Positions 21,818 through 61,767 of a stretch of DNA of 64,000 nucleotides are shown here, piece by piece. The stretch lies in contig NZ_CP028475.1 in the NCBI RefSeq assembly GCF_003047105.1, positions 2,542,001 through 2,606,000 on the forward strand, written 5' to 3'. The notes below the pieces were generated by a model. The model searched no databases. It was not told the origin of the DNA and saw only the letters and a program-made list of their open reading frames with translations. Position numbers and translations under genes: made by a program. The DNA is from Celeribacter baekdonensis (GTDB lineage Bacteria; Pseudomonadota; Alphaproteobacteria; Rhodobacterales; Rhodobacteraceae). Position 1 is the first letter of the stretch; each line of letters starts with the position of its first letter.

Positions 21818-22651
21818 ATGCAACATGAGCACCCCCCTTCCCGCCTCCCCTTTTTGAAAATGCACGGGCTTGGCAATGACTTCGTGATCTTTGATTCTCG
21901 GGGCCGCACTGCTGTGGTCACACCAGAGCTTGCGCGCGCCATTGGCGACCGCAACCGAGGCGTGGGATTTGACCAGTTGGCAGAGATCAGATCGTCAGAC
22001 ACGGCGGATATTGATCTCGACTTCTGGAATTCGGACGGCTCGCGCGCGGGTGCCTGCGGCAATGCCACGCGCTGTGTCGGGCGGTTGATTTTGGATGAAA
22101 CCGGCAAAGACGAGGTGACGATTCGCACCGAACGCGGGATTTTGATTGCCCAGCGTGCGGGCGATGAGGTGTCAGTCAACATGGGGCATCCGCAATTGAT
22201 GTGGGATGAGGTGCCACTATCTCGCCCTGTGGATGTGGAGCATCTGCCACTCAATGGCGATCCTGTTGCTGTTGGTATGGGCAACCCCCATGCGGTGTTC
22301 TTTGTAAAGAGTGCCGAGGAAACCGATGTCGCCGGATGGGGCCGCAAGGTCGAATTCGACCCGCTGTTCCCGCAACGCACCAATGTGGAATTTGCCGAAA
22401 TACGCGCGCGTGATGAGATCAGGATGCGGGTCTGGGAGCGCGGCACGGGAATCACGCTGGCCTGTGGGTCGGGTGCCTGTGCCACGGCTGTTGCCGCCAA
22501 CCTGCGTGGTCTCACCGATAAAAAGGTGCGGATGGAGGTCGATGGTGGCTGGCTGACGCTCGATTGGCGTAAGGATGGCGTTTGGATGACCGGACCGACA
22601 CAATTGGTGTTCAAAGCAGAATTTGATGCCTCCTTTCTGGAGCGCATCTGA
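21818..22651 (+). CDS. dapF: Diaminopimelate epimerase
   Basis: A 277-residue cytoplasmic enzyme converting LL- to meso-diaminopimelate for lysine and peptidoglycan. Both catalytic cysteines are present, in ACGNATRC and [10 protein letters not shown], and [13 protein letters not shown] is the N-terminal signature. The chosen ATG ([14 protein letters not shown]) lacks a strong ribosome site. With one more C in the run at 21832-21837, the ATG at 21825 would be in frame and give [12 protein letters not shown], so the start may be obscured by a sequence error. The TGA overlaps the next ATG (TGATG). Confidence 0.94.
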
Positions 22652-23912
22652 TGTCCACCAGCCCACCGATCTTTGCGACACTCGGCTGTCGCCTTAATGC
22701 CTATGAAACCGAAGCGATGAAAGACCTTGCCGCCAAGGCCGGGGTTGAAAACGCCGTGGTGGTCAACACCTGTGCCGTGACCGCAGAAGCCGTGCGCAAA
22801 GCCCGGCAAGAGATCCGCAAACTCAGACGCGACAATCCCGAGGCCAAAATCATCGTCACGGGCTGTGCCGCCCAGACTGAGCCAGAGACCTTTACCAAAA
22901 TGGCCGAGGTCGATTTGGTCATCGGCAACACGGAAAAGATGCAACCTGAAACCTGGTCCCGCATGGGCCCGGATTTCATCGGCCAAACGGAACGCGTTCA
23001 GGTCGATGACATCATGTCGGTGACGGAAACCGCCGGACATTTGATTGACGGGTTCGGCACCCGCTCGCGCGCTTATGTTCAGGTGCAAAATGGCTGCGAT
23101 CACCGCTGCACCTTTTGCATCATCCCCTATGGCCGCGGCAATTCCCGCTCTGTGCCCGCAGGCGTCGTGGTCGATCAGATCAAGCGGCTGGTGGACAAAG
23201 GCTACAATGAGGTCGTGCTGACCGGGGTCGATCTAACCTCTTGGGGGCGGATTTGCCTGCGAAACCGCACTTGGGCGATCTGGTGATGCGGATTTTAAAA
23301 TTGGTGCCGGATCTCCCACGCCTGCGGATCAGTTCGATTGATTCGATCGAAGCCGATGACATGTTGATGCAAGCGATCGCGACAGAACCGCGTTTGATGC
23401 CGCATTTGCACCTGTCGCTTCAGCATGGCGATGACCTGATCCTCAAACGTATGGCCCGCCGTCATTTACGCGACGATGCGATCCGGTTTTGCGAAGAGGC
23501 CCGCAAACTGCGCCCGGATATGACCTTTGGCGCCGATATTATCGCCGGGTTTCCAACCGAATCTGACGCGCATTTTGAGAATTCGCTGAATCTGGTACAC
23601 GAATGCGACCTCACTTGGCTGCATGTCTTTCCCTATTCCAAACGCGAAGGCACGCCCGCCGCAAAGATTCCCAATCAGGTGAATGGCACTGTCATCAAAG
23701 CCCGCGCTGCACGGTTGCGGGAGGCCGGAGATGTTCAAGTGCAACGCCACCTTGAGGCGCAGGTTGGGCGAGAGCACATCATTCTCATGGAAAACCCGCA
23801 CATGGGGCGGACCGAACAATTCACCGAAGTCACCTTCGACACGCCGCAGACCGAAGGCGCGATTGTCAGAGCCAAAATACTGGGCCTCAAAGGCACGCAA
23901 CTCTTAGCCTAG
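22651..23912 (+). pseudogene. mtaB: tRNA t6A37 methylthiotransferase MtaB, split by one-base frameshift
   Basis: A radical-SAM enzyme that adds a methylthio group to t6A37 of tRNA. The first part has the N-terminal cluster cysteines (TLGCRLNAYE, NTCAVTAEA, TGCAAQTEP) and the SAM motif CDHRCTFC. The frame then breaks after GVDLTSWG at a GGGGG run (23243-23247) and resumes one base off as ADLPAKPHLGDLVMRIL to the end. Adding one G restores a continuous 420-residue protein of normal length, ending in a TRAM-like segment. Everything else looks intact, so either this copy is mutated or one G is missing from the assembly. Translationally coupled to dapF. Confidence 0.9.
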
Positions 23913-23924
23913 GGACATGCGAAC

Positions 23925-24551
23925 ATGAGGCCGATCCTGTACTCCTTTCGCCGCTGCCCCTATGCGATGCGCGCACGTTTGGCGATTTTAAGTGCCGGAA
24001 TTGAGGTCGAACTGCGCGAGATCCTGTTGCGCGACAAGCCGCAAGAGATGTTGGCCGCCTCGCCCAAAGGCACCGTGCCCGTATTGATCGTTGGCGATCA
24101 AGTGATTGACGAAAGCCGCGACATTATGGACTGGGCCTTGGCACAAAATGACCCTGAGGGGCTTTTGGATATGCCGCCGCAGGCTCAGGATTGGATCGCA
24201 GCGGTCGAAGGCCCGTTCAAATCCGCTTTGGATCGTTACAAATACGCCACCCGCTATGCGGGCGCTGACCCGATGGCAGAACGCGACACAGCGGCACAGA
24301 TTTTGCAGCGCATAGAGGCACAACTCCAAAACACCCCATGGCTCTACGGAGACCAGCCGAGCTTTGCTGATCTGGCGACGATCACCTTCGTGCGGCAATA
24401 CGCAAATGTAGATCGCGCCTGGTTCGATGTGCAGGACTGGCCGGGGGTGCGCGGATGGCTTGAACGTTTTCTGTCCTCGGATCGCTTTGCGGCCATCATG
24501 GTGAAGTCTCCCAAATGGGAAACCTTAGCGATTCCGGTGGTTTTTCCTTAA
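23925..24551 (+). CDS. Glutathione S-transferase family protein
   Basis: A 208-residue two-domain protein. The N-terminal thioredoxin fold shows RRCPYAMRARLAI, with a Cys-Pro active-site-like pair as in omega/beta GSTs, then GTVPVLIVGDQVIDES, the glutathione gamma-glutamyl binding segment. A helical C-terminal domain follows (SFADLATITFVRQYANVD). The substrate cannot be told from sequence. It follows mtaB after 12 bases and probably shares its transcript. Confidence 0.85.
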   Translation: MRPILYSFRRCPYAMRARLAILSAGIEVELREILLRDKPQEMLAASPKGTVPVLIVGDQVIDESRDIMDWALAQNDPEGLLDMPPQAQDWIAAVEGPFKSALDRYKYATRYAGADPMAERDTAAQILQRIEAQLQNTPWLYGDQPSFADLATITFVRQYANVDRAWFDVQDWPGVRGWLERFLSSDRFAAIMVKSPKWETLAIPVVFP

Positions 24552-24581
24552 GTTAGGGCATTTTCAGTTTCGTTAGCGGTC

Positions 24582-24641
24582 ACAGATCGCGCGAAACCCA
24601 AAATGTCGTTCCCCTTACGCCACACCGCGACAGATCGCGCG
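24582..24641 (+). repeat. Two direct repeats ACAGATCGCGCG upstream of petA
   Basis: The same 12 bases occur at 24582-24593 and 24630-24641, exactly 48 bases apart, in the 220-base region before petABC. The spacing is close to a whole number of helical turns (4.6 at 10.5 bp, so not ideal). They may be regulator sites; PetR is a candidate but untested. Confidence 0.45.
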
Positions 24642-24772
24642 TCCCTGCGCCCCATTGTATGCTGGACGTGAGCGCATCGCCTCGCTAAAAGCGGCCCGGA
24701 AGGGCTGCATCGAATTGCGGCCTCTCATGCATTCGCCGGACGGACCCGGCTTGAGACAATGGAGATTTGCTC

Positions 24773-25336
24773 GTGTCCCATGTAGAAGAACACGAAGGCA
24801 CCCGCCGCGATTTCCTGTACTACGCCACTGGTGGCGCAGGTGCAGTCGCCGCAGGCGCCGCCGTCTGGCCGCTGGTCAATCAAATGAACCCCTCTGCTGA
24901 CGTTCAGGCGCTGTCGTCGATCCGCGTTGACATCAGCGGCGTCGACGTCGGCACACAGTTGACCGTCAAATGGCGCGGCAAGCCGGTGTTTATCCGCCGC
25001 CGCACCCAAGAGGAAATCGACATGGGCCGCGCAGTTGAACTGAGCGATCTTGTTGATCCCAACGCCGAAAACGCCAACATCGCGGCTGACGCAACAGCCG
25101 CTGACCAAAACCGTACGCTCGATGAAGCGGGCGAATGGTTGGTGATGATGGGCGTATGTACCCACCTTGGCTGTGTGCCTCTGGGTGATGGCGCTGGTGA
25201 CTTTGGTGGTTGGTTCTGCCCCTGTCACGGGTCGCATTATGACACCGCTGGTCGTATCCGCAAAGGACCGGCGCCGCGCAACCTGCCCGTTCCAGTCGCT
25301 GCCTTTGATGGCGACACTGAAATCGTTCTGGGCTGA
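24773..25336 (+). CDS. petA: Ubiquinol-cytochrome c reductase iron-sulfur (Rieske) subunit
   Basis: A 187-residue Rieske protein of the bc1 complex. It carries electrons from ubiquinol to cytochrome c1 on the periplasmic side. A twin-arginine-type N-terminus ([20 protein letters not shown]) serves as the membrane anchor. The 2Fe-2S ligands are in CTHLGC and [12 protein letters not shown] at 24773 is chosen because GGAG lies eight bases upstream and it gives the usual MSHVEEHEG start. petB follows after 11 bases. Confidence 0.97.
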
Positions 25337-25347
25337 GGGAGGAACTT

Positions 25348-26661
25348 ATGTCTGGTATTCCGCACGACCATTATGAGCCCAAGACGGGCTTCACCAAGGC
25401 GGTCGAGTCCCGCCTTCCGATCATCGGCCTGATCCATGGCACCTTGATGATCCCGACCCCGAAAAACCTGAACTGGATGTGGATCTGGGGCATTGTGCTC
25501 GCGTTCTGCCTCGGGCTTCAAATCGTCACCGGCATTGTTTTGGTGATGCACTACACGCCGCAGGTCGATTTGGCCTTTGCCTCCGTCGAACACATCATGC
25601 GTGACGTGAACGGCGGGCATATGCTGCGCTACTTGCACGCCAACGGCGCGTCGTTGTTCTTCTTTGCCGTGTACCTCCACATTTTCCGCGGTCTCTACTA
25701 CGGGTCTTACAAAGCCCCGCGCGAGATCACCTGGATCATCGGCATGATCATCTACCTCTTGATGATGGCCACCGGCTTTATGGGCTACGTTTTGCCTTGG
25801 GGTCAGATGTCGTTCTGGGGTGCTACCGTGATCACCGGCCTGTTTGGCGCGATCCCCTTTGTGGGCGAACCGATCCAAACTTGGCTCTTGGGTGGGCCGG
25901 CTGTGGACAACGCCACGCTGAACCGCTTCTTTTCGCTGCACTATTTGCTGCCCTTCGTGATTGCTGGCCTTGTGATCGTTCACATCTGGGCCTTCCACAC
26001 CACCGGCAACAACAACCCAACGGGTGTTGAAGTGCGCCGGACTTCCAAAGCCGAAGCCAAGAAAGACACCCTGCCTTTCTGGCCGTATTTCGTGATCAAA
26101 GACCTCTTCGCGCTCGGCGTGGTTTTGGTCGTGTTCTTCGCGATTGTTGGCTTTATGCCAAACTTCCTCGGCCACCCCGACAACTACCTCGAAGCAAACC
26201 CGCTTTCGACACCTGCGCATATTGTGCCGGAATGGTACTTCTTGCCGTTCTACGCCATCCTGCGTGCCTTCACTGCGGATGTTTGGGCTGTGCAAGCGGT
26301 CTCCTTCATCACCGGCGGCATCGTTGATGCGAAATTCTTCGGCGTCTTGGCCATGTTCGGCGCGATCATCGCCATGGCGCTTGTGCCTTGGCTCGACACA
26401 TCGTCGGTGCGTTCGGGCAAATACCGCCCGATGTTCAAATGGTGGTTTGCGCTGTTGGCCGTCGATTTCGTTGTGCTGATGTGGGTGGGCGCCATGCCGA
26501 CCGATGGGATTTACCCGTATATCTCGCTGATCGGTGCAACCTATTGGTTCGGATACTTCTTTGTTATCCTCCCACTTTTGGGTGTGATCGAAAAACCGCT
26601 GCCGACCCCGGCCACGATCGAAGAAGACTTTGCCGCCCACTACCCGGGCGCGGCCGAGTGA
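25348..26661 (+). CDS. petB: Cytochrome b of bc1 complex
   Basis: A 437-residue integral membrane subunit with eight or more hydrophobic helices, binding two b hemes and both quinone sites. Heme-ligand histidine pairs occur in helices near [19 protein letters not shown] and near [20 protein letters not shown]. The Qo-site PEWY motif appears as [12 protein letters not shown]. Length equals that of other Rhodobacterales cytochrome b. Preceded by GGAGG. Confidence 0.98.
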
Positions 26662-26678
26662 GAAAGGAAACAGGGACT

Positions 26679-27494
26679 ATGATGAAGAAACTTACCCTCT
26701 CCGCCCTCACCGCGCTGGCTTTGTCCACCGGTGGGGCCATGGCCTCCGAAGGCGGACACGTCCATGATGTGGATTTCTCCTTCGAAGGGCCGTTCGGTAA
26801 ATTTGACCAGATGCAGCTTCAACGCGGTCTGCAAGTTTACACCGAGGTCTGTTCGGCGTGCCACGGCATGAAATTCGTGCCGATCCGCACACTTGGCGAC
26901 AAAGGTGGGCCGGAGCTTCCCGAAGATCAGGTCCGCGCTTATGCGGCTCAGTTCCCGGTGAACGACGAAGCCTCCAACATGCAGCTTTTCGACTACAACG
27001 AAGGCGCTGCACGTCCGTTGACTGCGAACGATCACTTCCCGGCCAACCACTCGATGAACGCACCCGACCTGTCCTTGATGGCCAAAGCACGTGCAGGCTT
27101 TCACGGTCCTTACGGCACGGGCATCAACCAATTCCTCAAAGGCATCGGTGGCCCGGAGCACATCGTCTCCATCCTGACCGGCTACACCGGTGAGGAAAAG
27201 GTCGAAGCAGGCACCACCTATTACGAGAACACCGCGTTCTCGACCGGTTGGATCGCCATGGCTCCGCCGCTGTACGGGGAAGACGTCGAATATGCTGACG
27301 GTCACTCCAATGAGCTGCACCATGAGGCCGAAGACGTGGCTGCCTTCTTGATGTGGGCCGCCGAGCCGAAGATGATGGCACGCAAGCGGGCTGGCTTTAT
27401 GGCCGTGACCTTCTTGATCCTGCTGACCTCTTTGCTCTACCTGACCAACAAAAAACTCTGGGCACCGCATAAGGGCAAAAAGACATCGCTCTAA
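26679..27494 (+). CDS. petC: Cytochrome c1
   Basis: A 271-residue periplasmic c-type cytochrome anchored by a C-terminal helix ([20 protein letters not shown]). A signal peptide occupies about the first 22 residues ([19 protein letters not shown]). The heme motif is CSACHG, and the axial Met is probably in the IAMAPPLYG segment. Two adjacent ATG codons (26679 and 26682) are possible starts. It is the last gene of petABC and is followed by a strong terminator. Confidence 0.97.
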
Positions 27495-27517
27495 TTGAGC
27501 CAGGAGTTCGAAATGAG

Positions 27518-27545
27518 AAAGCGCCCCAATTTGGGGCGCTTTTTT
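27518..27545. terminator. Bidirectional terminator between petC and thiQ
   Basis: GCGCCCC and GGGGCGC form a stem flanked by AAA on one side and TTTTTT on the other. It lies 24 bases after petC and directly after thiQ, so it can serve both convergent operons. Confidence 0.9.
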
Positions 27546-28240
27546 CATGTGCCAATGTAGTCCAAAAGGCCCTGTGGCGGCTCAGACATCATCTCCGTCC
27601 AAGGTCGCGGCGGATGACAGAGACCCTCCTCAACCCAAATCACCAAATCGGCGAAACGGTCCACATCAGATACATCATGGGTGACCATCAACATCGTCGC
27701 CTCTAAGCGCGCGGAGACCTCTTTCGCCAGATCAATCATCTCATGGCGCATCGCCGGACCAAGCGCCGAAAACGGCTCATCCAACAGGATCAACGGCTTT
27801 TGCTGCACAAGGACGCGCGCCAAAGCCACGCGACTTTGCTGTCCACCCGAAAGTGCGCCGGGACGCCGAGCTTCTAAACCCTCAAGCCCCACCGCTCGCA
27901 GAGCCTCTGAGACAGTGTCCTTGTCTGACTTCGACAATCTTAAGTTTGGTTTCAGCCCAAGACCAACATTCTGCGCCGCGGTCATATGGGCAAAAAGCGT
28001 GTTGTCCTGAAACAGATGAGAAATCGGACGTTCAAAAGGTGCCGATCGACCAAAGGGTTTGCCCTGCCAAAGAATGTCACCGTCATCAGAGGCTTCAAAT
28101 CCCCCGATAAGCGACAAAAGCGTCGACTTCCCCGCGCCTGACGCACCAATCACCGCCACCCGCGCGCCTTTTGGCACTTGAAAATCAGCGGTGAGGGTAA
28201 AATCGCCCTGCGTTAGGCGCAGATTGCGGAACTCAAGCAC
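27545..28240 (-). CDS. thiQ: Thiamine ABC transporter ATP-binding protein
   Basis: A 231-residue ATPase with Walker A GASGAGKST, signature LSGGQQSRVALAR, Walker B PLILLDEPFSALG and switch His in VTHDVSD. It drives thiamine or thiamine diphosphate import with ThiP and ThiB. The start overlaps the end of thiP by 8 bases. Regulated at the RNA level by the TPP riboswitch at the head of the operon. Confidence 0.94.
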   Translation of the reverse strand: MLEFRNLRLTQGDFTLTADFQVPKGARVAVIGASGAGKSTLLSLIGGFEASDDGDILWQGKPFGRSAPFERPISHLFQDNTLFAHMTAAQNVGLGLKPNLRLSKSDKDTVSEALRAVGLEGLEARRPGALSGGQQSRVALARVLVQQKPLILLDEPFSALGPAMRHEMIDLAKEVSARLEATMLMVTHDVSDVDRFADLVIWVEEGLCHPPRPWTEMMSEPPQGLLDYIGT

Positions 28241-29777
28241 GGCGTCTCCCCCAAAGATCGAAGATGTAAAACAGAGCCAAACTCAGCCCAAGAAGCAGTA
28301 ACGCCGCCCCCATCGCCTGATCCATTCGATAAGATCCCATCAAGCGGTAGATTTGCAGCGGCAGCGTTGCGGAGTCAGGGCGCGCAAAAAGGGCGATCAC
28401 GCCCAGATCGCCCATCGACAGCGCCGCAGCAAGCCCAGCGGAAAAGCCCACAGGCCCGCGCAACCGAGGCCACAGCACAAGCCGCACACGGGTCCATCCC
28501 GTCAGCCCAAGACTGTCGGACAAGCGCCCATAGTTCCGCTCGGTCGCAGCCAAAGCGGGCCCAATTGCGCGCAAGATAAACGGTAAAGACATCACCGCAT
28601 TGACCAGCCCAGTGATGAACAAAGCCCAATCCGCCGGATCAGCCACAGCAAAAAGCACAATGTAAAGCCCTGTGCCCATGACCAGTGGCGAGGCTGCGAT
28701 GGCCGTCATGCCAACGCCTTCCAACCACCGCCAGCGCAGTGCCGAGAGACTAAGAGACAGGGACAAGATGATCGCCAATGCGGCCGACCCAAGAGCGGTC
28801 ACAAGGGAACGCAGGGCCGCGGACCAAACGGAGCTGGGCAAATCAAACAGCCCATGCGCGCCGCGCAGGACGATAGCCAGAAGCGGCAGGAGCAAAAAGA
28901 GACTGACCATCACGATCCAAAACAGATCCAAACCCCGTGCGCTCAACATGTGAACATCGAACCGCTGCACAGGGCGATCCAAACCAGCGCCACCCACCTG
29001 AGGCACGCGAAATTTGAGCGATACGAAGGCAGCCACAGCACAGATCACCACTTGGATCAGGGCCAAAAGCGAGGCTTTTCCAAGATTGAAATCATAGCGA
29101 AACGCCTCGTAAATCGCGAGTTCAACGGTGGTGGCTTTTGGCCCCCCGCCAAAGGTCAGAGCGACGGCAAACGAGGTGGTGCAAATCAGAAAAATAACCG
29201 CAAACGCGCCGGGCACAATCTCTTTCAACATCGGTCCTTCGATGTGGCGAAAGATGTCGCGCGGGGCGAAATTCAGCGACGCCGCAAGGCGGAACCTCTC
29301 GGACGGGATTGCGCCCCAACCCTGAAGCAACAACCGCGTTGCAAGCGGCAGATTAAAGAACACATGCGCAAGGATCACACCGTGGAACCCGTAGATCGAA
29401 ATAGGCCCTAATCCAGCCCAATTGAGCGCGATCGAGACAAATCCTGTTTTGCCAAACACCGCTGTCAATCCGAGAATGGCCACGATTGTCGGCAAGATGA
29501 ATGGCGCGCCCAAAAGGGTGATCAAAAGACGACGCCCATAAAAATCACGCCGCGCCAAACCACGTGCGACGGGGATCGCCAAAACCACAGACAGGCCCGC
29601 AGAGATCAGTGCCTGAACAACGGTGAACCGCACTGCCATCCAGTCAAATTTAGACAGTGTTGAAAAGCTCTCGGCCCGAAGCGCGACAACGCCCAGAGTG
29701 CCAAGGCTCAAGGCCGCGACCAAAGCCGCCGCGATGAGCCCCGGCCAAAGCCTTATTGCGAAAACGCGGTGCGCCAT
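28233..29777 (-). CDS. thiP: Thiamine ABC transporter permease
   Basis: A 514-residue inner-membrane protein with about 12 hydrophobic helices in two homologous halves, each with an EAA-type cytoplasmic loop. These are the regions near RLLLQGWGAIPSERFRLAAS and RNYGRLSDSLGLTGWTRVRL. The fused two-half layout is typical of ThiP. Its start lies 25 bases inside thiB, and its end overlaps thiQ. Confidence 0.94.
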   Translation of the reverse strand: MAHRVFAIRLWPGLIAAALVAALSLGTLGVVALRAESFSTLSKFDWMAVRFTVVQALISAGLSVVLAIPVARGLARRDFYGRRLLITLLGAPFILPTIVAILGLTAVFGKTGFVSIALNWAGLGPISIYGFHGVILAHVFFNLPLATRLLLQGWGAIPSERFRLAASLNFAPRDIFRHIEGPMLKEIVPGAFAVIFLICTTSFAVALTFGGGPKATTVELAIYEAFRYDFNLGKASLLALIQVVICAVAAFVSLKFRVPQVGGAGLDRPVQRFDVHMLSARGLDLFWIVMVSLFLLLPLLAIVLRGAHGLFDLPSSVWSAALRSLVTALGSAALAIILSLSLSLSALRWRWLEGVGMTAIAASPLVMGTGLYIVLFAVADPADWALFITGLVNAVMSLPFILRAIGPALAATERNYGRLSDSLGLTGWTRVRLVLWPRLRGPVGFSAGLAAALSMGDLGVIALFARPDSATLPLQIYRLMGSYRMDQAMGAALLLLGLSLALFYIFDLWGRRRA

Positions 29778-32204: not shown

Positions 32205-32212
32205 GACCCCCA

Positions 32213-39316: not shown

Positions 39317-40182
39317 TCAGGTTTCCCGCGAAATAACGAAGCGGGCAAGGTCTCGCAAGGGTTCGGCGCGGCTTCCATAGGGGCTCAATGCCGCACAGGC
39401 TTGCTCCACAAGGCGTTCGGCACGGGCTTTGGCCTCCTCAAGACCAAGCAGCGACACGAATGTGGCTTTGCCAGCCTCGGCATCTTTGCCCACGGCTTTG
39501 CCGGTTTTGGCAACATCGCCCTCTATATCTAGGATGTCATCATGGATTTGAAAGGCAAGTCCCAGCGCCGATGCATAGGCACGCAGTGGCGTAGGATCGG
39601 CCCCCCAAGGATGGCCCCGGCGCAAGCGGACCACTCAATCAGCGCACCGGTTTTATGCCCCTGAAGCTCGGTGATCTGCGCCAGATCAAGCGGTGTCTCT
39701 GAGGTCTCAGCCGCGATATCTTGGGCTTGGCCCAAAACCATGCCTTGAGCCCCGGATGATTTGGCCAAAGAGGCGATCAATTCGACCCGAACTTGGCTCG
39801 AAACGGCCATTTCAGGCCGAGTCAACAACTCGAACGCAAGAGTCTGAAGCGCATCGCCAACCAGCACAGCCGTCGCCTCGTCCCATCGTTTATGCACCGT
39901 TGGCTGACCCCGGCGCAGGTCGTCGTCGTCCATACACGGCAGGTCATCATGCACAAGACTATAGGCATGCAGCGCCTCAATCGCGGCGGCGGCCCAAACG
40001 GAGTGTTCAGCCGATACCCCATGAAGGGTCGCGCCCTCCATAACCAAAAACGCCCGCAACCGCTTGCCACCGTTTAAGGCATAGCGCATCCCCTCCTCGA
40101 CCGGCATGGACCCAAGCGGGGCCAAAGCCGTCTCAAGACAGGCCGCAACAGCCGCTTTGCAGCGTGCGAGATCGTCTTGCAT
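39317..40182 (-). pseudogene. ispA: Farnesyl (geranyl) diphosphate synthase, split by one-base frameshift
   Basis: The enzyme condenses C5 units to farnesyl diphosphate for ubiquinone and undecaprenyl carrier. Part one (from ATG 40182) has the first aspartate motif DDLPCMDDDDLRRG and runs to WSACAGAILGG. There it meets a run of six G (C on the plus strand, 39601-39606) and loses frame. Part two resumes one base off with ADPTPLRAYASALGLAF and the second aspartate motif DDILDIEGD. Adding one G gives a continuous 288-residue protein of normal size. Because the gene is expected to be essential, a missing base in the sequence is more likely than a true null. Start overlaps the xseB stop. Confidence 0.9.
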
Positions 40183-46066: not shown

Positions 46067-46794
46067 TCAATGGTCGAAACAAGCTGCGCGACCATCGCGG
46101 GATATTGTCGCGGCCCCATCGACGATCTGGGCGGCTCTCCGCCGAACAAATGGGCCAGGATTGCCCGCATTTCGATCTTTTGGTGCGGGCAAAACAGCCG
46201 CGAGTTGGGCCGACTGTTGCGCCGTGAGGGCCTCTGGGCCGACTCCAAAATAATGGCGCGCCGCAGCCTCTGCACCAAAGACGCCCGCATCAAATTCAGC
46301 AACATTGAGATAGACCTCAAGGATGCGCTTTTTGCTCCATGTCAGTTCAACGATGGGGGTAATGAGGGCCTCAAGCGCTTTGCGAGACCAACTCCGCCCA
46401 TGCCATAAAAAGCTATTTTTGACCACTTGCTGTGTGATCGTCGAGGCCCCACGTTGCCCCCCGAGTCGATTGCGGCACGAATGGCGGTCAGGTCAAACCC
46501 CCAATGGGTACAAAAATTAGCATCCTCCGCAGCAACAACGGAGCGCGCAAGCGCCGGCGATATACGCTCGATCGGGGTCCATTGATAATCCACCGATGCG
46601 CCCTGACGGCCAGATTCGGCCATCATATAGGGTGTCGTCGGCACGGGAAGGACGGAATAGGCCAGAATCCACAGCACACCCACCCCCATGAACAGCGCCA
46701 CCAATCGCAACACCCGCCGCCGAATGCGCCGAAACAGACCGGGACCGGAGGTGGTCGATTTTTTGGTCGATTTTTTCTGTGTCTTGCGTGCCAT
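46067..46794 (-). pseudogene. mtgA: Monofunctional peptidoglycan glycosyltransferase MtgA, split by one-base frameshift
   Basis: MtgA polymerises lipid II without a transpeptidase domain. From ATG 46794 there is a basic N-terminus, one membrane helix (LVALFMGVGVLWILAYSVLP) and motif 1, AAEDANFCTHWGFDLTAIRA. The frame then breaks in a six-G run (six C at 46457-46462). One base off, the sequence continues GASTITQQVVKNSFLWHGRS with WSRKALEALITPIVELTWS, KKRILEVYLNVAEF and the end. One added G yields a continuous 242-residue protein of normal length, so an assembly error is the simpler explanation. Confidence 0.9.
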
Positions 46795-46852
46795 GCGAAC
46801 GAGGAACCACGTGGGCCGTATAAAGGTCAAGTGATCGGATCGACAAAACGAA

Positions 46853-46878
46853 AAAAGCCCCCGAAACCGGGGGCTTTT
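46853..46878 (-). terminator. Rho-independent terminator of gltB
   Basis: AAAAGCCCCCG pairs with CGGGGGCTTTT; on the minus strand TTTTTT follows. It begins 20 bases after the gltB stop. Confidence 0.9.
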
Positions 46879-46897
46879 CGCGAAGTTCGGGTCACAT

Positions 46898-51433
<4,536 letters not shown>

Positions 51434-52921: not shown

Positions 52922-52981
52922 GACACCACATCTCCGAATAGGTTGGTTGTGAGTTTGAGCTTAAATACAAGCAGTCTGAAA

Positions 52982-53023
52982 AAAAGAAAAGTCAGAAGTG
53001 CTGTCTTATTTTTCTTTTCTTTT
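52982..53023. promoter_or_regulatory. A/T-tract inverted repeat in the gltD-uppP divergent promoter
   Basis: AAAAGAAAAG (52982-52991) and CTTTTCTTTT (53014-53023) form a 10-bp inverted repeat with a 22-base spacer, about 60 bases before gltD and 130 before uppP. The A/T tracts stand out in this GC-rich sequence and could be a regulator site or an intrinsically bent promoter. Confidence 0.4.
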
Positions 53024-53151
53024 GGGCCAACTGGTCAAAATTAAGGTCCCGACAGATGATTTTAGGTAATGCATGGTGACCTACATTCATCCTTCTTATT
53101 GATAACAAATGGGTTTACGCTGCCGCAAACCAGTCCAAAGGCGAACCTCCC

Positions 53152-53955
53152 ATGTCTCTCTTTTACCTCCTCATTCTTGCGATTGTTCAAGGCATTACAG
53201 AGTTTTTGCCGATTTCATCGTCTGGCCACCTGATTCTCCTGCCCCACCTGCTCGGAGCACAAGACCAAGGTCAGGCGATTGATGTCGCGGTTCATGTTGG
53301 CACACTGGGCGCCGTCATCGTCTATTTTTGGCGCGATGTGCGCGAGGGCGTTTTAGGCCTTCCCAGACTCGTCACCGGACGCATCGACACCCCCGGATCG
53401 AAACTTGCTTTTCTCCTGCTCATCGCAACCATCCCTGTCGTCTTTCTTGGTCTTGTCCTGAAAGTCACCGGGCTGTCGGACCTGATGCGCTCCACCGCCG
53501 TGATTGGTTGGACCATGCTGATTTTTGGCATCGTTCTGTATTGGTTCGATCAAAAAGGCGCTGAGGAAAAAGAGGCGGGCGACTGGTCGATCAAAGACGC
53601 TGTGAAACTGGGCCTCTGGCAAGCGATCGCTTTGATACCCGGCACATCACGCTCCGGCATCACCATCACCGGCGCGCGCGCCATGGGGTACAAACGCGAA
53701 GACGCCGCAAAGATTTCGATGCTGATGTCGATCCCAACAATCATGGCCTCCGGCATCTTGTTGGGCGCGGAGGTTGTCGGGCAAGCGGATTGGGCGATGA
53801 TGAAAGACGCGGCCATTGGCGCGGTCTTTGCATTTGGCGCCGCCATCCTTGCCCTGTCGCTGATGATGAAGCTTTTGAAATCCGTCAGCTTTACGCCCTA
53901 TGTGATCTATCGTGTGATCTTGGGCGTGGTGCTTTTGGTGATCTCCTACAGCTAA
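53152..53955 (+). CDS. uppP: Undecaprenyl-diphosphatase
   Basis: A 267-residue, about eight-helix membrane enzyme that recycles undecaprenyl diphosphate to the monophosphate carrier. The catalytic motifs are QGITEFLPISSSGHLIL near the N-terminus and PGTSRSGITITGARAMG in the middle. Sequence length is typical of BacA/UppP. The ribosome site is weak. Confidence 0.97.
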   Translation: MSLFYLLILAIVQGITEFLPISSSGHLILLPHLLGAQDQGQAIDVAVHVGTLGAVIVYFWRDVREGVLGLPRLVTGRIDTPGSKLAFLLLIATIPVVFLGLVLKVTGLSDLMRSTAVIGWTMLIFGIVLYWFDQKGAEEKEAGDWSIKDAVKLGLWQAIALIPGTSRSGITITGARAMGYKREDAAKISMLMSIPTIMASGILLGAEVVGQADWAMMKDAAIGAVFAFGAAILALSLMMKLLKSVSFTPYVIYRVILGVVLLVISYS

Positions 53956-53985
53956 TCCAGCCCCGCGACCTGCCGCATAACACAT

Positions 53986-54016
53986 GAAAAAGCGCGCCCA
54001 CTTTCGTGAGGCGCGC
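53986..54016 (-). terminator. Rho-independent terminator after the NDUFA9-like gene
   Basis: GCGCGCC-CAC and GTG-GGCGCGC form a long stem around TTTC (one bulged A). On the minus strand TTTTT follows. It lies 26 bases after the stop of the gene at 54042 and may also stop uppP transcripts. Confidence 0.8.
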
Positions 54017-54041
54017 TGTGCCATTCATCCTGTTAAACAGG

Positions 54042-55025
54042 TCAGATATTCATGTTCTTCGCGCTTTCGCGGATCGCGTCATACTGACCCGACGGGCGAT
54101 AGACCCACATGTAGTCCGGCAAAACAGCCTGAAGCGCGGTCGGCGTCATGCCAAGATCAGCAAAGGTTTTTGCACCTTCTGACACCACATTATCAACCCG
54201 CAGGTTGGCCACCTGATCGCGGGTCAAAACACCGTTATGGAACAGGCCAGCGGTCAGAAATTGCGCCACGGAGAAAACACCGCCCATGATATTGCCCGCC
54301 CAGAACGGCAAGTTCAGGATCAAACGGTTGCGGTGAAGCACGGCGAGCATGTCGCCCATCAGACCCTTGAGCGTGTCCACATCCGGGCCGCCAAGTTCGT
54401 AAACGCCCGCGTCCGCCTGCCCCAAAACCGCTTTCACGGCGACTTGAGCCACGTCATCGACATAGACCGGCTGAAATTTCGTATTACCGCCAACCAAGGG
54501 CAAAACGATGCTTTTCTCAGCCATCTTGCCGAAGCGGTTAAAGAACTCATCCTCTGTGCCAAAGATCACCGAAGGACGCAGGATCACAGCCTTTGGGAAG
54601 GCCGCGAGCACTTTGGCCTCACCTTCCGCTTTGGTGCGGGAATAGGCGCTTTTCGATTGCGCGTCGGCACCAATGGCGGACAAATGAACCAGCCGTTCCA
54701 CGCCTTGCTCGGCGGCAATGCGCGCGATGCGACCCGCGCCATCAGCCTGAATCGCCGCAAAGGAATTTTTGCCGCGCTCGGTCAAAACACCAACACAGTT
54801 CACAACCGCATCCGCGCCAGCCATCGCCGCACGCACAGAGGCGTCATCGCGAATGTTGCAAAAGATCGGTTCGACCTGACCCACTGCGCCGTAAGGTTTT
54901 ACATAAAGCGACTCGTTGGGGCGACGAACCGCGACACGCACACGCCAGCCCTCCTTTGCCATACGACGGGCGATGTACCGCCCGACAAAGCCAGCGCCGC
55001 CATAGATGGTGACCAGTTTCGTCAT
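54042..55025 (-). CDS. NAD(P)H-binding atypical SDR, complex I NDUFA9-like
   Basis: A 327-residue protein. The Rossmann turn is VTIYGGAGFVGRYIARRMAK. VLRPSVIFGTEDEFFNRFGK and FQPVYVDDVAQVAVKAVLGQ are typical of the NDUFA9 (complex I accessory subunit) family in alphaproteobacteria. It lacks a catalytic Tyr-Lys pair at the usual place, consistent with a structural or quinone-related role. ATG 55025 is chosen because GGAG lies six bases upstream. Confidence 0.85.
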   Translation of the reverse strand: MTKLVTIYGGAGFVGRYIARRMAKEGWRVRVAVRRPNESLYVKPYGAVGQVEPIFCNIRDDASVRAAMAGADAVVNCVGVLTERGKNSFAAIQADGAGRIARIAAEQGVERLVHLSAIGADAQSKSAYSRTKAEGEAKVLAAFPKAVILRPSVIFGTEDEFFNRFGKMAEKSIVLPLVGGNTKFQPVYVDDVAQVAVKAVLGQADAGVYELGGPDVDTLKGLMGDMLAVLHRNRLILNLPFWAGNIMGGVFSVAQFLTAGLFHNGVLTRDQVANLRVDNVVSEGAKTFADLGMTPTALQAVLPDYMWVYRPSGQYDAIRESAKNMNI

Positions 55026-55166
55026 CTGCATCTCCAATGCCAATTACCGCTTTTCTTTAGCTTTTAGAGCGGAAATGAACAAGACGCTATTGCTGTTCCA
55101 CAAATCCTTTAAAATCGTCGTTGACAGTGCCCTTCAGGCCTATTACATCGCGGCTCTACGACACCT

Positions 55167-55253
55167 GCCCAGGTGGCGGAATTGGTAGACGCGCTAGCTT
55201 CAGGTGCTAGTATTGGCAACGATGTGGAGGTTCGAGTCCTCTCCTGGGCACCA
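55167..55253 (+). tRNA. tRNA-Leu (anticodon CAG)
   Basis: An 87-nt class II tRNA with encoded CCA. Acceptor GCCCAGG pairs with CCTGGGC. The anticodon stem CTAGC/GCTAG encloses TTCAGGT with CAG, a long variable arm follows (TATTGGCAACGATG), and the T arm is GAGGTTCGAGTCCTC. Confidence 0.95.
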
Positions 55254-55256
55254 AAT

Positions 55257-55276
55257 ACTCTTAAGAATTTAAGAGT
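55257..55276 (+). terminator. Hairpin directly after tRNA-Leu
   Basis: ACTCTTAA and TTAAGAGT form a perfect 8-bp stem with a GAAT loop, four bases after the tRNA CCA. There is no T-run, so it may be a weak terminator or a processing signal. Confidence 0.4.
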
Positions 55277-55439
55277 GACGACCATCCCCCCGATTTTGAC
55301 ATATTGCAGTCTGATCACCCAAACCCTTTGGATTGGTCAAACCACGATCACGACATCAAAGATGTGCGATCCCTTGCCCCGGATGGGCAGAATGCGTATT
55401 GACAGGCGACAGCCAGATTTAGCGCAAAGGCCCCTCTCC

Positions 55440-56051
55440 ATGGCGAATTTCCTTTATAAAAACGATCTCCCTGACGATCTCGACCTTGGTCCGATTGTTG
55501 CCATTGATTGCGAAACCATGGGGTTGAATCCGCATCGGGATCGTTTGTGCCTTGTGCAAATGTCCGGCGGCGACGGCAACGCCCATTTGGTTCAAGTCGC
55601 TCGCGGCCAAACCGAGGCCCCCAACCTGTGCAAAATGTTGGCCGATCCCAATGTGCTAAAGCTGTTTCATTTCGGTCGTTTCGACATCGCCGCGATGTAT
55701 CACGCCTTTGGCACCGTGACCGAACCGGTCTATTGCACCAAAATCGCCTCCAAACTGGTCCGCACCTTCACCGATCGGCATGGGTTGAAAAATCTGCTTG
55801 AGCAGCTTTTGAAGGTCGACATTTCCAAATATCAACAGATGAGCGATTGGGGGGCCGAAGATCTTACCAATGCGCAACTCGATTATGCCGCCTCTGACGT
55901 CTTGTACCTGCACCAACTGCGTGAAAAGCTCAACGTGATGCTGGAACGCGAAGGTCGGATGGAGATTGCTCAGGCCTGTTTCGACTTTCTGCCAACGCGG
56001 GCCAAATTGGACCTCGAAGGTTGGCCCGAAATCGACATTTTCACCCACTGA
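55440..56051 (+). CDS. rnd: Ribonuclease D (single-domain)
   Basis: A 203-residue 3'-5' exonuclease. DEDD catalytic residues are visible in VAIDCETMGL, FHFGRFDIAAM and DYAASDVLYLHQL. It has only the exonuclease domain; the HRDC domains of E. coli RNase D are absent, as is common in alphaproteobacteria. ATG 55440 begins the conserved MANFLYKNDLPDD; the frame is open further upstream into the tRNA but that is not coding. It heads the rnd-kdsD-lptCAB run. Confidence 0.92.
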   Translation: MANFLYKNDLPDDLDLGPIVAIDCETMGLNPHRDRLCLVQMSGGDGNAHLVQVARGQTEAPNLCKMLADPNVLKLFHFGRFDIAAMYHAFGTVTEPVYCTKIASKLVRTFTDRHGLKNLLEQLLKVDISKYQQMSDWGAEDLTNAQLDYAASDVLYLHQLREKLNVMLEREGRMEIAQACFDFLPTRAKLDLEGWPEIDIFTH

Positions 56052-56087
56052 TCTGCTCTTGCCCATTTTGCCACTGAGGAGGTCGCC

Positions 56088-57050
56088 ATGACCCAATCGG
56101 ACGCCTTTATCGCCACCGCCCAGCGCGTGATCCGCCTCGAAGCTGAGGCGCTGACCCAATTGGCCGAAGGCATCGGCGCAAATTTTGCCGAAGCTGTCGG
56201 GCTTATTCTTGCCGCCAAAGGGCGCACGATTGTCACAGGCATGGGGAAATCCGGCCATATCGCCCGCAAAATCGCCGCCACACTGGCCTCCACCGGCACG
56301 CCGTCGCATTTCGTCCACCCCGCCGAAGCCAGCCATGGCGATCTTGGCATGATCGGTAGCGACGATGTGTGTCTGGTTCTGTCCAATTCTGGCGAAACGC
56401 CTGAACTTGCCGACCTCATCACCTACACGCGGCGGTTCAAGATTCCGATGATCGGCGTCGCCTCGAACCCGGACAGCTCATTGATCCGCGCCTGTGATGT
56501 GGCTCTGATCCTGCCGAAAATGCCCGAAGCCTGTGGTCACGGCATCGTGCCGACCACCTCGACCACAATGACACTGGCACTCGGCGATGCCATCGCCGTG
56601 GCTCTGATGGAACAACATGCTTTCACCGCCGACAATTTCCGCGTCTTGCATCCCGGTGGTAAACTGGGCGCACGCCTGACCAAAGTCCGCGCGTTGATGC
56701 ACGAGGATATGCCTTTGGTGACAGCCGAAACGTCGATGCGAGACACGCTTGCAGAGATTTCCGCAAAGGGCTTCGGTGTTGTCGGTGTGGTTAACACCCA
56801 AGGTCATCTGACCGGCATCATCACAGACGGCGATTTGCGCCGCAACATAGACGGATTGCTCGATAAATCAGCAGGCGACATCATGACCGCCGCGCCAATG
56901 ACCATTTCCCCCGATGCCTTGGCCGAAAAAGCCGTGGCGCGGATGGATGAGCGGGCGATCACCTGTCTTTTTGTGCGGGATCCTGCCGAAGATGGCCGTC
57001 CTTGCGGGATTTTGAAAATACAGGACTGTCTTCGCGCTGGCGTCGTGTAA
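56088..57050 (+). CDS. kdsD: Arabinose-5-phosphate isomerase
   Basis: A 320-residue KpsF/GutQ-type enzyme that converts ribulose-5-phosphate to arabinose-5-phosphate for Kdo of LPS. A SIS domain (GRTIVTGMGKSGHIARKIAA; FVHPAEASHGDLGMI) is followed by two CBS domains (residues ~200-320). GAGG lies upstream of the ATG. It sits directly before lptC, as usual. Confidence 0.95.
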   Translation: MTQSDAFIATAQRVIRLEAEALTQLAEGIGANFAEAVGLILAAKGRTIVTGMGKSGHIARKIAATLASTGTPSHFVHPAEASHGDLGMIGSDDVCLVLSNSGETPELADLITYTRRFKIPMIGVASNPDSSLIRACDVALILPKMPEACGHGIVPTTSTTMTLALGDAIAVALMEQHAFTADNFRVLHPGGKLGARLTKVRALMHEDMPLVTAETSMRDTLAEISAKGFGVVGVVNTQGHLTGIITDGDLRRNIDGLLDKSAGDIMTAAPMTISPDALAEKAVARMDERAITCLFVRDPAEDGRPCGILKIQDCLRAGVV

Positions 57051-57059
57051 GACAGCCCT

Positions 57060-57659
57060 ATGGCGCGGTTTGACAACAGCTATTCTCGATTTGTGGCGCT
57101 CGCAAAGATCGTCCTCCCTTTGGCCAGCCTTGTGGTTTTGGCCACCCTATTTTTGTTTGCGCGCGGGCGGGAATTTGAAATGTCGATTCCCTATGCGCAG
57201 GTTGATCTGGAAACACTGGCCCGCGAACAACGCGTTGATGGGCCCTCCTTTGCAACCGTGACCCAAGATGGGGCGCAGTTGGAACTGTCCGCCGACCGTG
57301 TCCGTCCTGACCTCTCCACCAAAGATGTGGTGAACTCGTCGGCCATTCGCGGCGCTCTACGCATTCCGGGAAATGGCTCCGTCACGCTGCAAGCCGATGA
57401 TGGTGTCATTGACGGTCCCGGCAAAATTGCTGAACTGTCCGGCAATGTGCAAATCGAAACATCCACCGGCTACACGATCCTCTCTGACCGCATCGCGACC
57501 ATGCTGGATGTGTCCAACATCGAAAGCCCCGGCACCGTCACCGCCGACGGGCCAACCGGGCATTTGACCGCCGGAGCGATGCAAATCTCCCAAGATGAGG
57601 GGGCAGACACTTACCTTCTGGTTTTCAAGGACGGTGTAAAGCTGGTATATCAGCCATGA
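57060..57659 (+). CDS. lptC: LPS export protein LptC
   Basis: A 199-residue bitopic protein with an N-terminal membrane helix (IVLPLASLVVLATLFLFARG) and an OstA-like beta-jellyroll (VTLQADDGVIDGPGKIAELS, TVTADGPTGHLTAGAMQISQ). It passes LPS from LptBFG to LptA. Its stop overlaps the possible lptA ATG at 57656. Confidence 0.88.
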   Translation: MARFDNSYSRFVALAKIVLPLASLVVLATLFLFARGREFEMSIPYAQVDLETLAREQRVDGPSFATVTQDGAQLELSADRVRPDLSTKDVVNSSAIRGALRIPGNGSVTLQADDGVIDGPGKIAELSGNVQIETSTGYTILSDRIATMLDVSNIESPGTVTADGPTGHLTAGAMQISQDEGADTYLLVFKDGVKLVYQP

Positions 57660-57676
57660 AATTTGAGGAAAAACCC

Positions 57677-58180
57677 GTGCGTATCATTCAAGCCCTTTCC
57701 CTGAGCATGGCGCTGATCATCGCCCTGTCGCTTCACGGCCTCGCAGCACACGCCCAAAGCGCCCAGATCGCATTCGGAGGGTTGAAGCACGACAGTTCGC
57801 AGCCTGTCGAAGTGACCTCCGACCAATTGAGTGTCGACCAAGCAACCGGAAAGGCGCTTTTCGCAGGCAATGTCGTGATTGGCCAAGGCACGCTGCGACT
57901 GACGGCGCAGACCGTTGAGGTTGTTTATGCCAAAACCGGCGGCACAATCGCACGACTTTTGGCCTCCGGCGGCGTGACCATCACCAATGCAGGCGAAACG
58001 GCGGAGGCCGCTCAGGCCGAATATGACCTCGAATCATCGACCGTTCTGCTCACTGGCAACGTGCTTTTGACCCAAGCCGGTAGCGCCCTTTCGGGCGAAC
58101 GCATGGTGATTGACCTCAACACCGGCACCGGTCGCATGGACGGGCGCGTGAAAACGATTTTGCAGCCTGGGAAAAACTGA
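57677..58180 (+). CDS. lptA: LPS transport periplasmic protein LptA
   Basis: A 167-residue periplasmic bridge protein with an OstA fold. The signal peptide is [20 protein letters not shown] ending near AAHAQSA. Mature core: [20 protein letters not shown], then [23 protein letters not shown] 57677 has GAGG eight bases upstream and puts the signal peptide at the N-terminus; ATG 57656, which overlaps the lptC stop, would add seven residues. Confidence 0.9.
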
Positions 58181-58911
58181 TGTCCGACACAACCGGGCTC
58201 AAGGTCCGCAATCTGCGCAAAGGCTATCGCAAACGCACCGTGATCCGCGACGTGTCGCTTGATCTTGGCCGTGGTGAGGTTGTGGCGCTGCTGGGTCCAA
58301 ATGGTTCGGGCAAAACCACCTGCTTCTATTCCATCGCAGGTCTTGTGATGCCGGAAGCCGGAGAGATCACCGTCGATGGCCGCAACATCACGCTTTTGCC
58401 GATGTACCGTCGCGCCAAAATGGGGATCGGATATTTGCCGCAAGAGGCCTCTATTTTTCGCGGCCTTTGCGTTGAGGACAACATCCTCGCGATCCTCGAA
58501 GTGTCCGAATCCGACCCCCTCGTGCGGCGTGAAAAACTTGAAGAATTGCTGTCCGAATTCTCGATCTCTCACCTGCGCCGCGCGCCCGCCTTGTCGCTCT
58601 CCGGGGGCGAACGTCGTCGGGTCGAAATTGCGCGCTGTCTGGCGTCTGACCCCTCTTATGTGCTTTTGGACGAACCCTTTGCCGGCGTTGATCCGATTGC
58701 GGTGGCGGAAATTCGCGGACTTGTGTCCGATCTCAAAAACCGTGGCATTGGCGTCTTGATCACGGATCATAACGTTCAGGAAACGTTAGGAATTATTGAT
58801 CGGGCCTATATTTTGCATGACGGCCAAGTGTTGATGTCCGGCACCACCGAAGACATCGTTGCGGATGAAACTGTACGCCGCGTTTACCTTGGCGACAATT
58901 TCCGGATTTGA
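58180..58911 (+). CDS. lptB: LPS export ABC transporter ATP-binding protein LptB
   Basis: A 243-residue ATPase that powers LPS extraction. Walker [10 protein letters not shown]-loop [15 protein letters not shown] (LptB-specific), signature [15 protein letters not shown], Walker [16 protein letters not shown] and switch [10 protein letters not shown]. The start overlaps the lptA stop (TGATG). The partner permeases lptF/lptG are not in the window. Confidence 0.97.
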
Positions 58912-59157
58912 TCGCGAGTTTCGATTGACATTGACCTAGATTCTGCCGCCAAATGTAACCGATGCATGACGCGCGTTTCACAGTCTGCGCCACGGCAAAT
59001 CAAAGCCTTTGGGCGCCAAAGCAACACCCCGACACACCGTCTGGGTCCTACGGTGAACGCATGCATTCAACTCCCGCTTTATACAAGAACCCAAGGCCCT
59101 GTCAGACGTCGGAGGAGGCGTCGAATATATAGGTCCCAAAGAAAGAAGGAGGTATCA
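58912..59157 (+). promoter_or_regulatory. hpf leader region
   Basis: About 250 bases between lptB and hpf. It carries a TTGACA at 58925-58930 but no convincing -10 element at the right spacing, and a strong ribosome site GAAGGAGG just before hpf. A separate promoter for hpf is likely but cannot be placed. Confidence 0.35.
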
Positions 59158-59733
59158 ATGCGGTACCAAATCAGCGGAAAACAAATCGACATCGGCACAG
59201 CCCTTCAAACGCATGTGAAGACGGAGCTGGGCACCGTTCTTGATAAATACTCGCAGCGTCCGACCGACGCGAATGTCGTGTTTTCAAAAACTGGGGCAGA
59301 ATTCAATTGCGAGGCCGTGGTGCATCTGTCCAGCGGACTGACCGCACAGGCCAGCGCTCATGCCCATGAAATCTACGCGGCTTTTGATGACTGCGCGGAA
59401 AAAATGGACAAGCAGCTGCGTCGCTACAAACGCCGTTTGAAAGATCACCACAAGGATCGTGCCGAGCCGGTTGAACTCTTCGGCGCTTCCCAGTATATCC
59501 TCGCCGCATCAGACCATGATGAGGATCAGGAACCCGAAAGCCTTCAGCCGATGATCATCGCTGAAATGGAGGCGAAGATTCCGACCCTGACGGTTGGCGA
59601 AGCAGTGATGCAAATGGAATTGGCCGGCGCTCCTGTTCTTGTGTTCCACAAGGATGGAAAAACCGGAGTAAACGTGGTCTACCGCCGTGCCGATGGGAAC
59701 ATCGGTTGGGTTGACCCTAACAACGCGACATAG
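59158..59733 (+). CDS. hpf: Ribosome hibernation promoting factor (long form)
   Basis: A 191-residue protein. The N-terminal S30AE/YfiA domain (MRYQISGKQIDIGTALQTHV, then FNCEAVVHLSSGLTAQASAH) binds the 30S decoding region. The C-terminal domain (MELAGAPVLVFHKDGKTGVN, then VVYRRADGNIGWVDP) dimerises 30S subunits and forms 100S particles. ATG 59158 follows a near-perfect AAGGAGG site. ptsN follows. Confidence 0.95.
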   Translation: MRYQISGKQIDIGTALQTHVKTELGTVLDKYSQRPTDANVVFSKTGAEFNCEAVVHLSSGLTAQASAHAHEIYAAFDDCAEKMDKQLRRYKRRLKDHHKDRAEPVELFGASQYILAASDHDEDQEPESLQPMIIAEMEAKIPTLTVGEAVMQMELAGAPVLVFHKDGKTGVNVVYRRADGNIGWVDPNNAT

Positions 59734-59776
59734 CAAAACTGGCCCGCCTCGACGGGTCGGGGCGGGTACATTTCAT

Positions 59777-60241
59777 ATGGATATATCTAAGATCTTGGAT
59801 CCGCAGGCCATCAAGCTGGTCGGAAAGATGACGAGTAAGAAACGTCTCTTTCAGGATCTTGGTGAAATCGCAGCGAGTGCCTATGGCCTGTCGCTCAACG
59901 ACACGGTTGATGCTCTGCAAGAGCGCGAAAGCCTTGGCCCAACAGGTGTGGGCCATGGCGTTGCTCTACCGCATGCCCGTATTGAGGGATTGGATCGCGT
60001 CGTGGGTGCTTTTATGCGCCTTGAAAACCCGATGGATTTCGATGCGGTGGACCGCCAGCCGGTCGATTTGATCTTCGCGCTCTTTGCCCCTGCGGAATCT
60101 GGGGTCGATCACCTCAAAGCGCTGGCTCTTGTGTCACGCACCATGCGTGATGGCGATATCTGTACCAAACTGCGCGCCAACGGCGAGGCCGCGACCCTTC
60201 ATGCCATTCTCACTGAAGCCCCCGCGACAAAGGCCGCTTAA
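59777..60241 (+). CDS. ptsN: Nitrogen PTS EIIA component
   Basis: A 154-residue EIIA-Ntr regulatory phosphocarrier. The phosphorylated His is in GVALPHARI, and RESLGPTGVGHG precedes it, both diagnostic. It acts in the PTS-Ntr chain that reports nitrogen and potassium status. The ATG at 59777 begins the conserved MDISKILDPQ; its ribosome site is poor, so coupling to hpf is likely. Confidence 0.93.
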   Translation: MDISKILDPQAIKLVGKMTSKKRLFQDLGEIAASAYGLSLNDTVDALQERESLGPTGVGHGVALPHARIEGLDRVVGAFMRLENPMDFDAVDRQPVDLIFALFAPAESGVDHLKALALVSRTMRDGDICTKLRANGEAATLHAILTEAPATKAA

Positions 60242-60337
60242 ACACGGCCTCTGCGTGTTTCGACCTGACGCATGAAGCACAGAGCGCGCAGCACGGCTTT
60301 CACCTCCACTTTTGAGACCCGCGTATAGCGACACACT

Positions 60338-61767
60338 TTAAGTCTGTGACCAGGACTTAAAGCCGAACATCATGTAATCGCGCTGATAGGCGGCCCTTAC
60401 GGCATCTTCGACCTCATCGTCATAGATATCCGCAAGGGTGAAGGGCATATCGTCCAGCTCCGCTTTTGCGGCGAGGCCCGACACCCCAATGCTCGTCCCA
60501 AGATAGCCGAGACCCTCGGCAAGACTTTCCTCACGCAAGATCATGTCAGGCAATGAAAAATCCGCGAAACCTTTGATCACTTCCGATTGTGACGCCCAAG
60601 TGCCATCCACGCGCACGGATGTTTGGCCATTGAGATTGCCTTTGACGAAGTCCGCAAATTTCAGGAACGCTTCCCGGTGCTGATCCCGGCTATACCCCGC
60701 GTCTGGTTGGCCCACGGGATCGGAAGTTTATAGGTGCCACGCAATGTCTCTCGAATTTCCCCATAAGTCAGTTCGCTCAGATTCAAAATATAGCGACAAA
60801 ACGTGCGATGGAGTCGCAAAGCCGGGTGCGAAATCACCGTAAAGCTACGATGACCTTTGTGTTGCCGCTTCCACTGGCGGAGCGTCTTTTGGGTAAAGCC
60901 TTTGCTCAAAGCGGCGGGATCGCCCTTGTCCAAACCCGCCAGCCAAACCTGCACCGCCTGTTCTGGTCCACTGCGCACCGGCATGTAGAGCAAAGGCGCC
61001 GTCTGACCAGCCACATAGGTCGGGACCCCAGGGCCACGGCGCGGCTCGAAATTTGGCGTGTTGGATAGATTGAAATGATCGACATTGGAGAGCGCGGACA
61101 CCATCTCCGCGTAGTTCACAACCTTATCCTCAAGGCGCGAGGGGTTTTGAACCTTGGTCTTTTGCGTGGTCTTGCCCCGCTCCTCAAAAACGCCCAGGAA
61201 ATGCGCCAAACCATTGAGAACCTCAATGTCCTGAATATCGTCATAGTTGATATAGAACGCAGTTTGGCCTGTGGTTTGTAGCGCCCGTTGCAGCGAGAGT
61301 TGAAAACCTTTCAGCTCGTCCAACAGGCCTTCGAATTCGCGTTTATCAAACACGACCTTAGCCGATTTAGCATCTTTCAAATCACCAAGTCGCCATTGCC
61401 CGGTCTCGCCCGCAATCTTGCGCGACACATAGCTGTCGAGCGGATTGCGTGTGAGGATAATCTTGGCACAGTTCGGGTCTTTCAAGACATGCGCCAGAAT
61501 GCGCGGATCGTGATCATGGAAAAACCGAAACCCGGCCAATCCCTCGGTTGCATCGCGCATTTTGCGCAGCAAAAGCGTCGGGTCCGCCTCGCGCATGATC
61601 AGGCTCACGCCCAACATGTCTTTCTGTTTCGACTTCCCGATGAAGGCCGGGTTGAACACCTCGCCCCAACATTTCAACCCAGGGTAGGAATTGATGTTTT
61701 CTTCGAGAAAGTTCGACCCGGTTCGCATTTCAGCGAAAATCACGAAATAGTCGTACTGCTTAGACAT
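60338..61767 (-). pseudogene. Sulfotransferase family protein, split by one-base frameshift
   Basis: A roseobacter sulfotransferase-type protein (often labelled NodH-like). The PAPS-binding P-loop region is MRTGSNFLEENINSYPGLKC near residue 15, and a 3'-phosphate segment LTRNPLDSYVSRKIAGETGQ follows. The frame breaks in KLPIPWANQ (about 60711-60715) and resumes one base off as GQPDAGYSRDQHREAFLKFA to the stop, with GNLNGQTSVRVDGTWASQSE and RAAYQRDYMMFGFKSWS. One added base (for example one more G in GTGGGCC) gives a continuous 476-residue protein. Three bases downstream of the GT14 gene. Confidence 0.8.

Follow-up and report, generated by a model that had tools for sequence, protein, structure and literature searches.

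We conclude that the breaks dividing four unrelated genes between two reading frames are very probably residual long-read consensus errors in the genome record of the marine bacterium Celeribacter baekdonensis LH4 and that, in the organism, all four genes are most likely intact. This reading draws on the open copies of the genes in two close relatives, an excess of the same kind of break in four regions of the chromosome (26 of 291 genes), a split rpoB, selection that stays the same past the breaks, nearly identical proteins elsewhere that are intact, and a published sequencing method that was PacBio only. The earlier note on this DNA had preferred systematic deletions in the assembly to four independent pseudogenes, and the evidence bears out that preference.

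Four split genes and their open counterparts in relatives

The study genome (G000; 4.44 Mb in six contigs) contains the window, that is, the whole 64,000-nucleotide stretch that was analyzed (G000:C4:2542001-2606000). We compared it with its two closest relatives, G012 and G013 (91% in mtaB). Alignment showed that positions 21592-64000 of the window are collinear with both, and this part was used for the three-way test. Two other parts lie outside the three-way test: positions 6592-12380, which aligned to G012 alone, and positions 12381-21590, for which the fetched stretches of the two relatives gave no alignment.

The note had described mtaB, ispA, mtgA, and a sulfotransferase-like gene as each being read in two frames, and this is what the sequence holds (Table 1). 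The comparison with close relatives that it had proposed found the shift in neither G012 nor G013 at the four sites: by alignment, each relative is one base longer there, with a single open frame throughout. For mtaB and the sulfotransferase-like gene, the sites were compared in these two genomes only; 80 ispA loci were used solely for placing the family.

Table 1. Features of the window (positions are those of the window)
Feature	Position	Strand	Reading frames	Break or remark
mtaB (tRNA methylthiotransferase)	22651..23912	+	22651-23286 and 23241-23912	G run 23243-23247 (G5)
ispA (farnesyl diphosphate synthase)	39317..40182	-	39529-40182 and 39317-39634	39601-39606, six-base run (C on +)
mtgA (monofunctional transglycosylase)	46067..46926	-	46342-46926 and 46067-46426	46457-46462, six-base run (C on +)
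Sulfotransferase-like gene	60338..61767	-	60661-61767 and 60338-60715	60711-60715 (CCCAC on +), not a long run
fliK (weaker fifth candidate)	264..2294	-		Lacks one base at 308-322 that both relatives have
Long ORF	8943-10778	-		Overlaps the next ORF
Long ORF	9198-11894	+		Overlaps the previous ORF
tRNA-Arg	12304-12380
Bacterial alpha-2-macroglobulin with PAN domain	12530-17977			In the unaligned stretch
Penicillin-binding protein with PbpC-type C terminus	18002-20071			In the unaligned stretch
tRNA-Lys	21629-21704

In mtaB, the Pfam domain UPF0004 and the N part of Radical_SAM lie in the first frame and the C part of Radical_SAM lies in the second, and the 420-aa copy of G012 scores above the cut-off of the NCBIfam model TIGR01579 (MtaB). 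The Pfam polyprenyl_synt match of ispA is divided over the two frames (5-162 and 170-231), and the 288-aa copy of G013 is above the cut-off of the NCBIfam FPPsyn model NF045485; G000 has one further PF00348 gene, with an open frame of 365 aa. Pfam Transgly is split in the same manner in mtgA (11-53 and 73-172), the G012 copy of which meets TIGR02070. Neither half of the sulfotransferase-like gene, whose relatives are called NodH by the sources, has a Pfam match, and the intact G012 copy matches only below the Pfam cut-off.

The breaks had been placed mostly in G runs. This holds for mtaB, ispA, and mtgA but not for the fourth gene, where CCC stands beside GTGGG and there is no true homopolymer. 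The note had also proposed that one added G restores mtaB, ispA, and mtgA; in mtgA, both G012 and G013 carry a different base inside the run. In the fifth candidate, fliK (identified by a Flg_hook match), the missing base falls at nt 1990 of 2109, next to a run of five C on the + strand, and only the last residues are altered.

The unaligned stretch 12381-21590 lies between a tRNA-Arg and a tRNA-Lys gene. The sequences on its two sides are found at separate locations in G012, which makes the stretch a breakpoint in gene order as well. It contains the alpha-2-macroglobulin and the penicillin-binding protein of Table 1, and no PADLOC match was found for the island proteins of the window. Two long ORFs overlap on opposite strands in front of it, and the 898-aa ORF of this pair has no Pfam or PADLOC match.

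Private frame breaks across the chromosome

We counted genes that are open in two of the three genomes but whose frame is broken in the third by an indel private to it and not close to either end of the gene. This test was run on four chromosome regions and covered 291 G000 genes (306,240 bp). Filters removed ORFs shorter than 100 aa or without a coding-like codon-position signal, together with events close to gene ends, so that the filtered counts leave out some further G000 gaps, including that in fliK. Private breaks affect 26 of the 291 G000 genes (12/141, 1/7, 5/61, and 8/82 by region), as against 3/276 genes in G013 (Fisher 1e-5) and 1/266 in G012 (Fisher 4e-7). One of the 26 events, at position 53 of a glyoxalase-type gene, may precede the true start. 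The deletions measured in G000 amount to 0.0075% of coding bases, or roughly one in every 13 kb of coding sequence, and extrapolation from the four regions gives a genome-wide total of perhaps 300 errors.

The G000 events consist of 23 one-base deletions and three insertions, and hand sorting of the printed contexts showed that 22 of the 23 deletions adjoin a G/C run of at least 3 bases. The relatives have four private events between them, and no such run holds any of these. When G/C runs were grouped by their observed length in the first three regions, those affected numbered 2/4238 at length 3, 3/851 at length 4, 8/204 at length 5, 2/27 at length 6, and 1/5 at length 7, which means that the affected share climbs from 0.05 to 20%. 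Interior deletions in runs of at least 5 bases were found in 11/236 G/C runs vs. 0/586 A/T runs in the same regions (p 9e-7). Some breaks adjoin runs of just 3 or 4 bases. A single deletion in a T run, close to the start of an ORF, falls outside the count margin, and A or T runs that differ by one base were also seen between genes.

A global shortening of runs was considered and rejected, the number of G/C runs per length being roughly equal in G000, G012, and G013. Since these counts are alike, the losses concern no more than a few percent of the long runs. Comparison of the rRNA operons was uninformative: the cores of the three 16S genes and of the three 23S genes, which contain 10 G/C runs of at least 5 bases, are identical and show no copy-to-copy error. 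On the G strand, 9/11 affected runs of at least 5 bases are followed by C, vs. 116/236 in the background (hand count), and it is possible that the error has a sequence context, namely C after a G run.

Genes hit, selection, and intact copies

Naming the other broken genes from the intact copies of the relatives gave RsmG, TruB, trimethylamine N-oxide demethylase, a FlgL-like protein, an AraC-type regulator, a LysE-type exporter, a GDSL lipase, dihydrofolate reductase (DHFR), MutL, and RpoB. The G000 rpoB is in two frames of 1080 and 306 aa, the protein being 1381 aa in both relatives, and genome searches found no second copy of rpoB or DHFR in G000. The breaks are thus blind to the importance of a gene, with rpoB, ispA, and DHFR all split. 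The note had argued from the essentiality of ispA, which is weaker than it claimed (E. coli does not strictly require ispA); the split single-copy rpoB carries the point better. mutL (G000:C4:2947478-2949096) is likewise divided, into frames of 484 and 318 aa, through the lack of one base next to a G run, and is open in both relatives. For MutS, the frame of 943 aa is free of stops.

Five family searches that had not been picked for known breaks found 2/19 G000 genes split (rpoB and mutL) and no internal stops in MutS, five tRNA-synt_1 genes, and eleven GTP_EFTU genes. This share is near the overall 9%, and most of the indispensable genes examined are intact, as expected at such a rate.

Selection beyond the breaks was assessed in 18 broken genes, using margins slightly unlike those of the break counts. 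The share of differences at third codon positions was 0.751 for G000-G012, 0.765 for G000-G013, and 0.749 for G012-G013, i.e., constraint on G000 beyond its breaks is no looser than between the relatives. Unbroken genes gave 0.79 and 0.81, and the broken genes are slightly less constrained than average in every comparison, that between G012 and G013 included. Beyond its break, rpoB shows 1, 0, and 24 differences at codon positions 1, 2, and 3, respectively. There is no excess of nonsense codons in G000, with 7 compared to 7 in G013 and 8 in G012.

Intact proteins resembling the split products were also found. A 476-aa sulfotransferase-like protein (P0001) is 100% identical over 95% of the N part and matches 122/125 residues of the C part. 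For MtgA, there are intact 242-aa proteins (P0241-P0244) at 96-97%, with 113/116 for the N part and 117/119 for the C part, the closest of which is named Celeribacter baekdonensis by the sources. An intact 288-aa IspA, at 96% and with 88/95 for the C part, is perhaps from another species. The small amino acid differences show that these proteins come from other strains. They prove the existence of intact copies close by but not the state of the genes in LH4.

Probable consensus error and competing explanations

The LH4 announcement gives PacBio RS II P6-C2 sequencing, HGAP 3.0 assembly, about 215x coverage, and 99.99% concordance, and leaves short-read polishing unmentioned (PMC5958252). This concordance predicts ~31 errors in 306 kb, where we found 26 frame-breaking indels with a test blind to substitution errors. 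All six published LH4 replicons are exactly 100 bp longer than the matching G000 contigs (PMC5958252).

In the mechanism that we propose, the PacBio-only assembly of LH4 would read some G/C runs one base short, longer runs more often, and the residual errors, about one per 13 kb of coding DNA, would shift the frame of whichever gene they strike. Reads or an independent sequence of LH4 would then be expected to show the longer run. As to the cause, a mismatch between older consensus software and the newer chemistry is a guess.

The available portions of the reports on Kastor (PMC12007338) and Homopolish (PMC8011154) deal with unpolished long-read assemblies of bacteria in which indels at homopolymers break up genes. 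G000 resembles those assemblies in its short homopolymer-tied indels, the prominence of deletions, the many false frameshifts, and the way in which relatives reveal them. It differs in being a PacBio RS II record, whereas those assemblies are mainly from Nanopore, and the restriction to G/C runs that we measured is not described in the available portions of either report. Our literature search found no paper on homopolymer errors of PacBio P6-C2/HGAP and none joining "Celeribacter baekdonensis LH4" with "frameshift."

Some observations go against consensus error. At a coverage of about 215x, the errors would have to be systematic. Three of the 26 events are insertions, some of the runs have only 3 bases, one deletion is in a T run, A or T runs also differ by one base between genes, and the rRNA cores are clean. 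Moreover, a one-G deletion in another PacBio genome, of Propionibacterium, was backed by 9/10 reads, according to the part of that report that is available (PMC5644110). Finally, mutL is split like the other genes, which a true mutator would be predicted to show as well.

The last point leads to the best rival to consensus error, that LH4 is a real mismatch-repair mutator in which mutL is broken and G/C runs genome-wide have lately lost single bases through replication slippage. Mismatch-repair mutators accumulate frameshifts in mononucleotide runs through one-base changes, at a rate rising with run length, as slippage itself does. G000 is like them in its one-base run changes, in the climb with run length, and in its mutL, which is split beside a G run and open in both relatives. 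It is unlike them in that its breaks strike the indispensable rpoB, spare A/T runs of at least 5 bases, and are nearly all deletions. Furthermore, MutS is open, and LH4 grows as a pure culture (PMC5958252; also the available part of PMC8245480). The mutL break is itself a change of the kind that is in doubt. Since loss of the single rpoB would be lethal, a mutator cannot be the whole answer, and we consider this explanation very improbable. Even less credence is due to the possibility that LH4 truly has about 300 G/C-run deletions, a mutL mutator, and a split rpoB (as two polypeptides or by slippage).

Two explanations rank lowest, both so improbable as to be almost negligible. Four genuine, recent, and independent pseudogenes would account for genes that are all out of frame in the given sequence but not for the same type of break in 26/291 genes, rpoB included, nor for the lack of a nonsense excess (7, 7, and 8) and of relaxed selection (0.751 vs. 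0.749). The other explanation, in which genes truly out of frame still give full-length products because G runs cause programmed frameshifting or transcript slippage, would suit the several sites with G5 or G6 runs, and runs are known to permit recoding in general, but the genes struck are unrelated, some runs are merely 3 or 4 bases long, and neither relative has the shift at the four sites.

Taken together, these findings favor residual consensus errors; very probably, the breaks are not a real feature of the organism, and we see no new biology in them. They do mean that in a closed, published genome roughly 9% of the compared genes appear broken, rpoB and mutL among them. Pseudogene counts, essential-gene lists, mutator claims, and metabolic reconstruction based on this record would mislead, and the case offers a clear worked example of how relatives separate consensus errors from gene decay.
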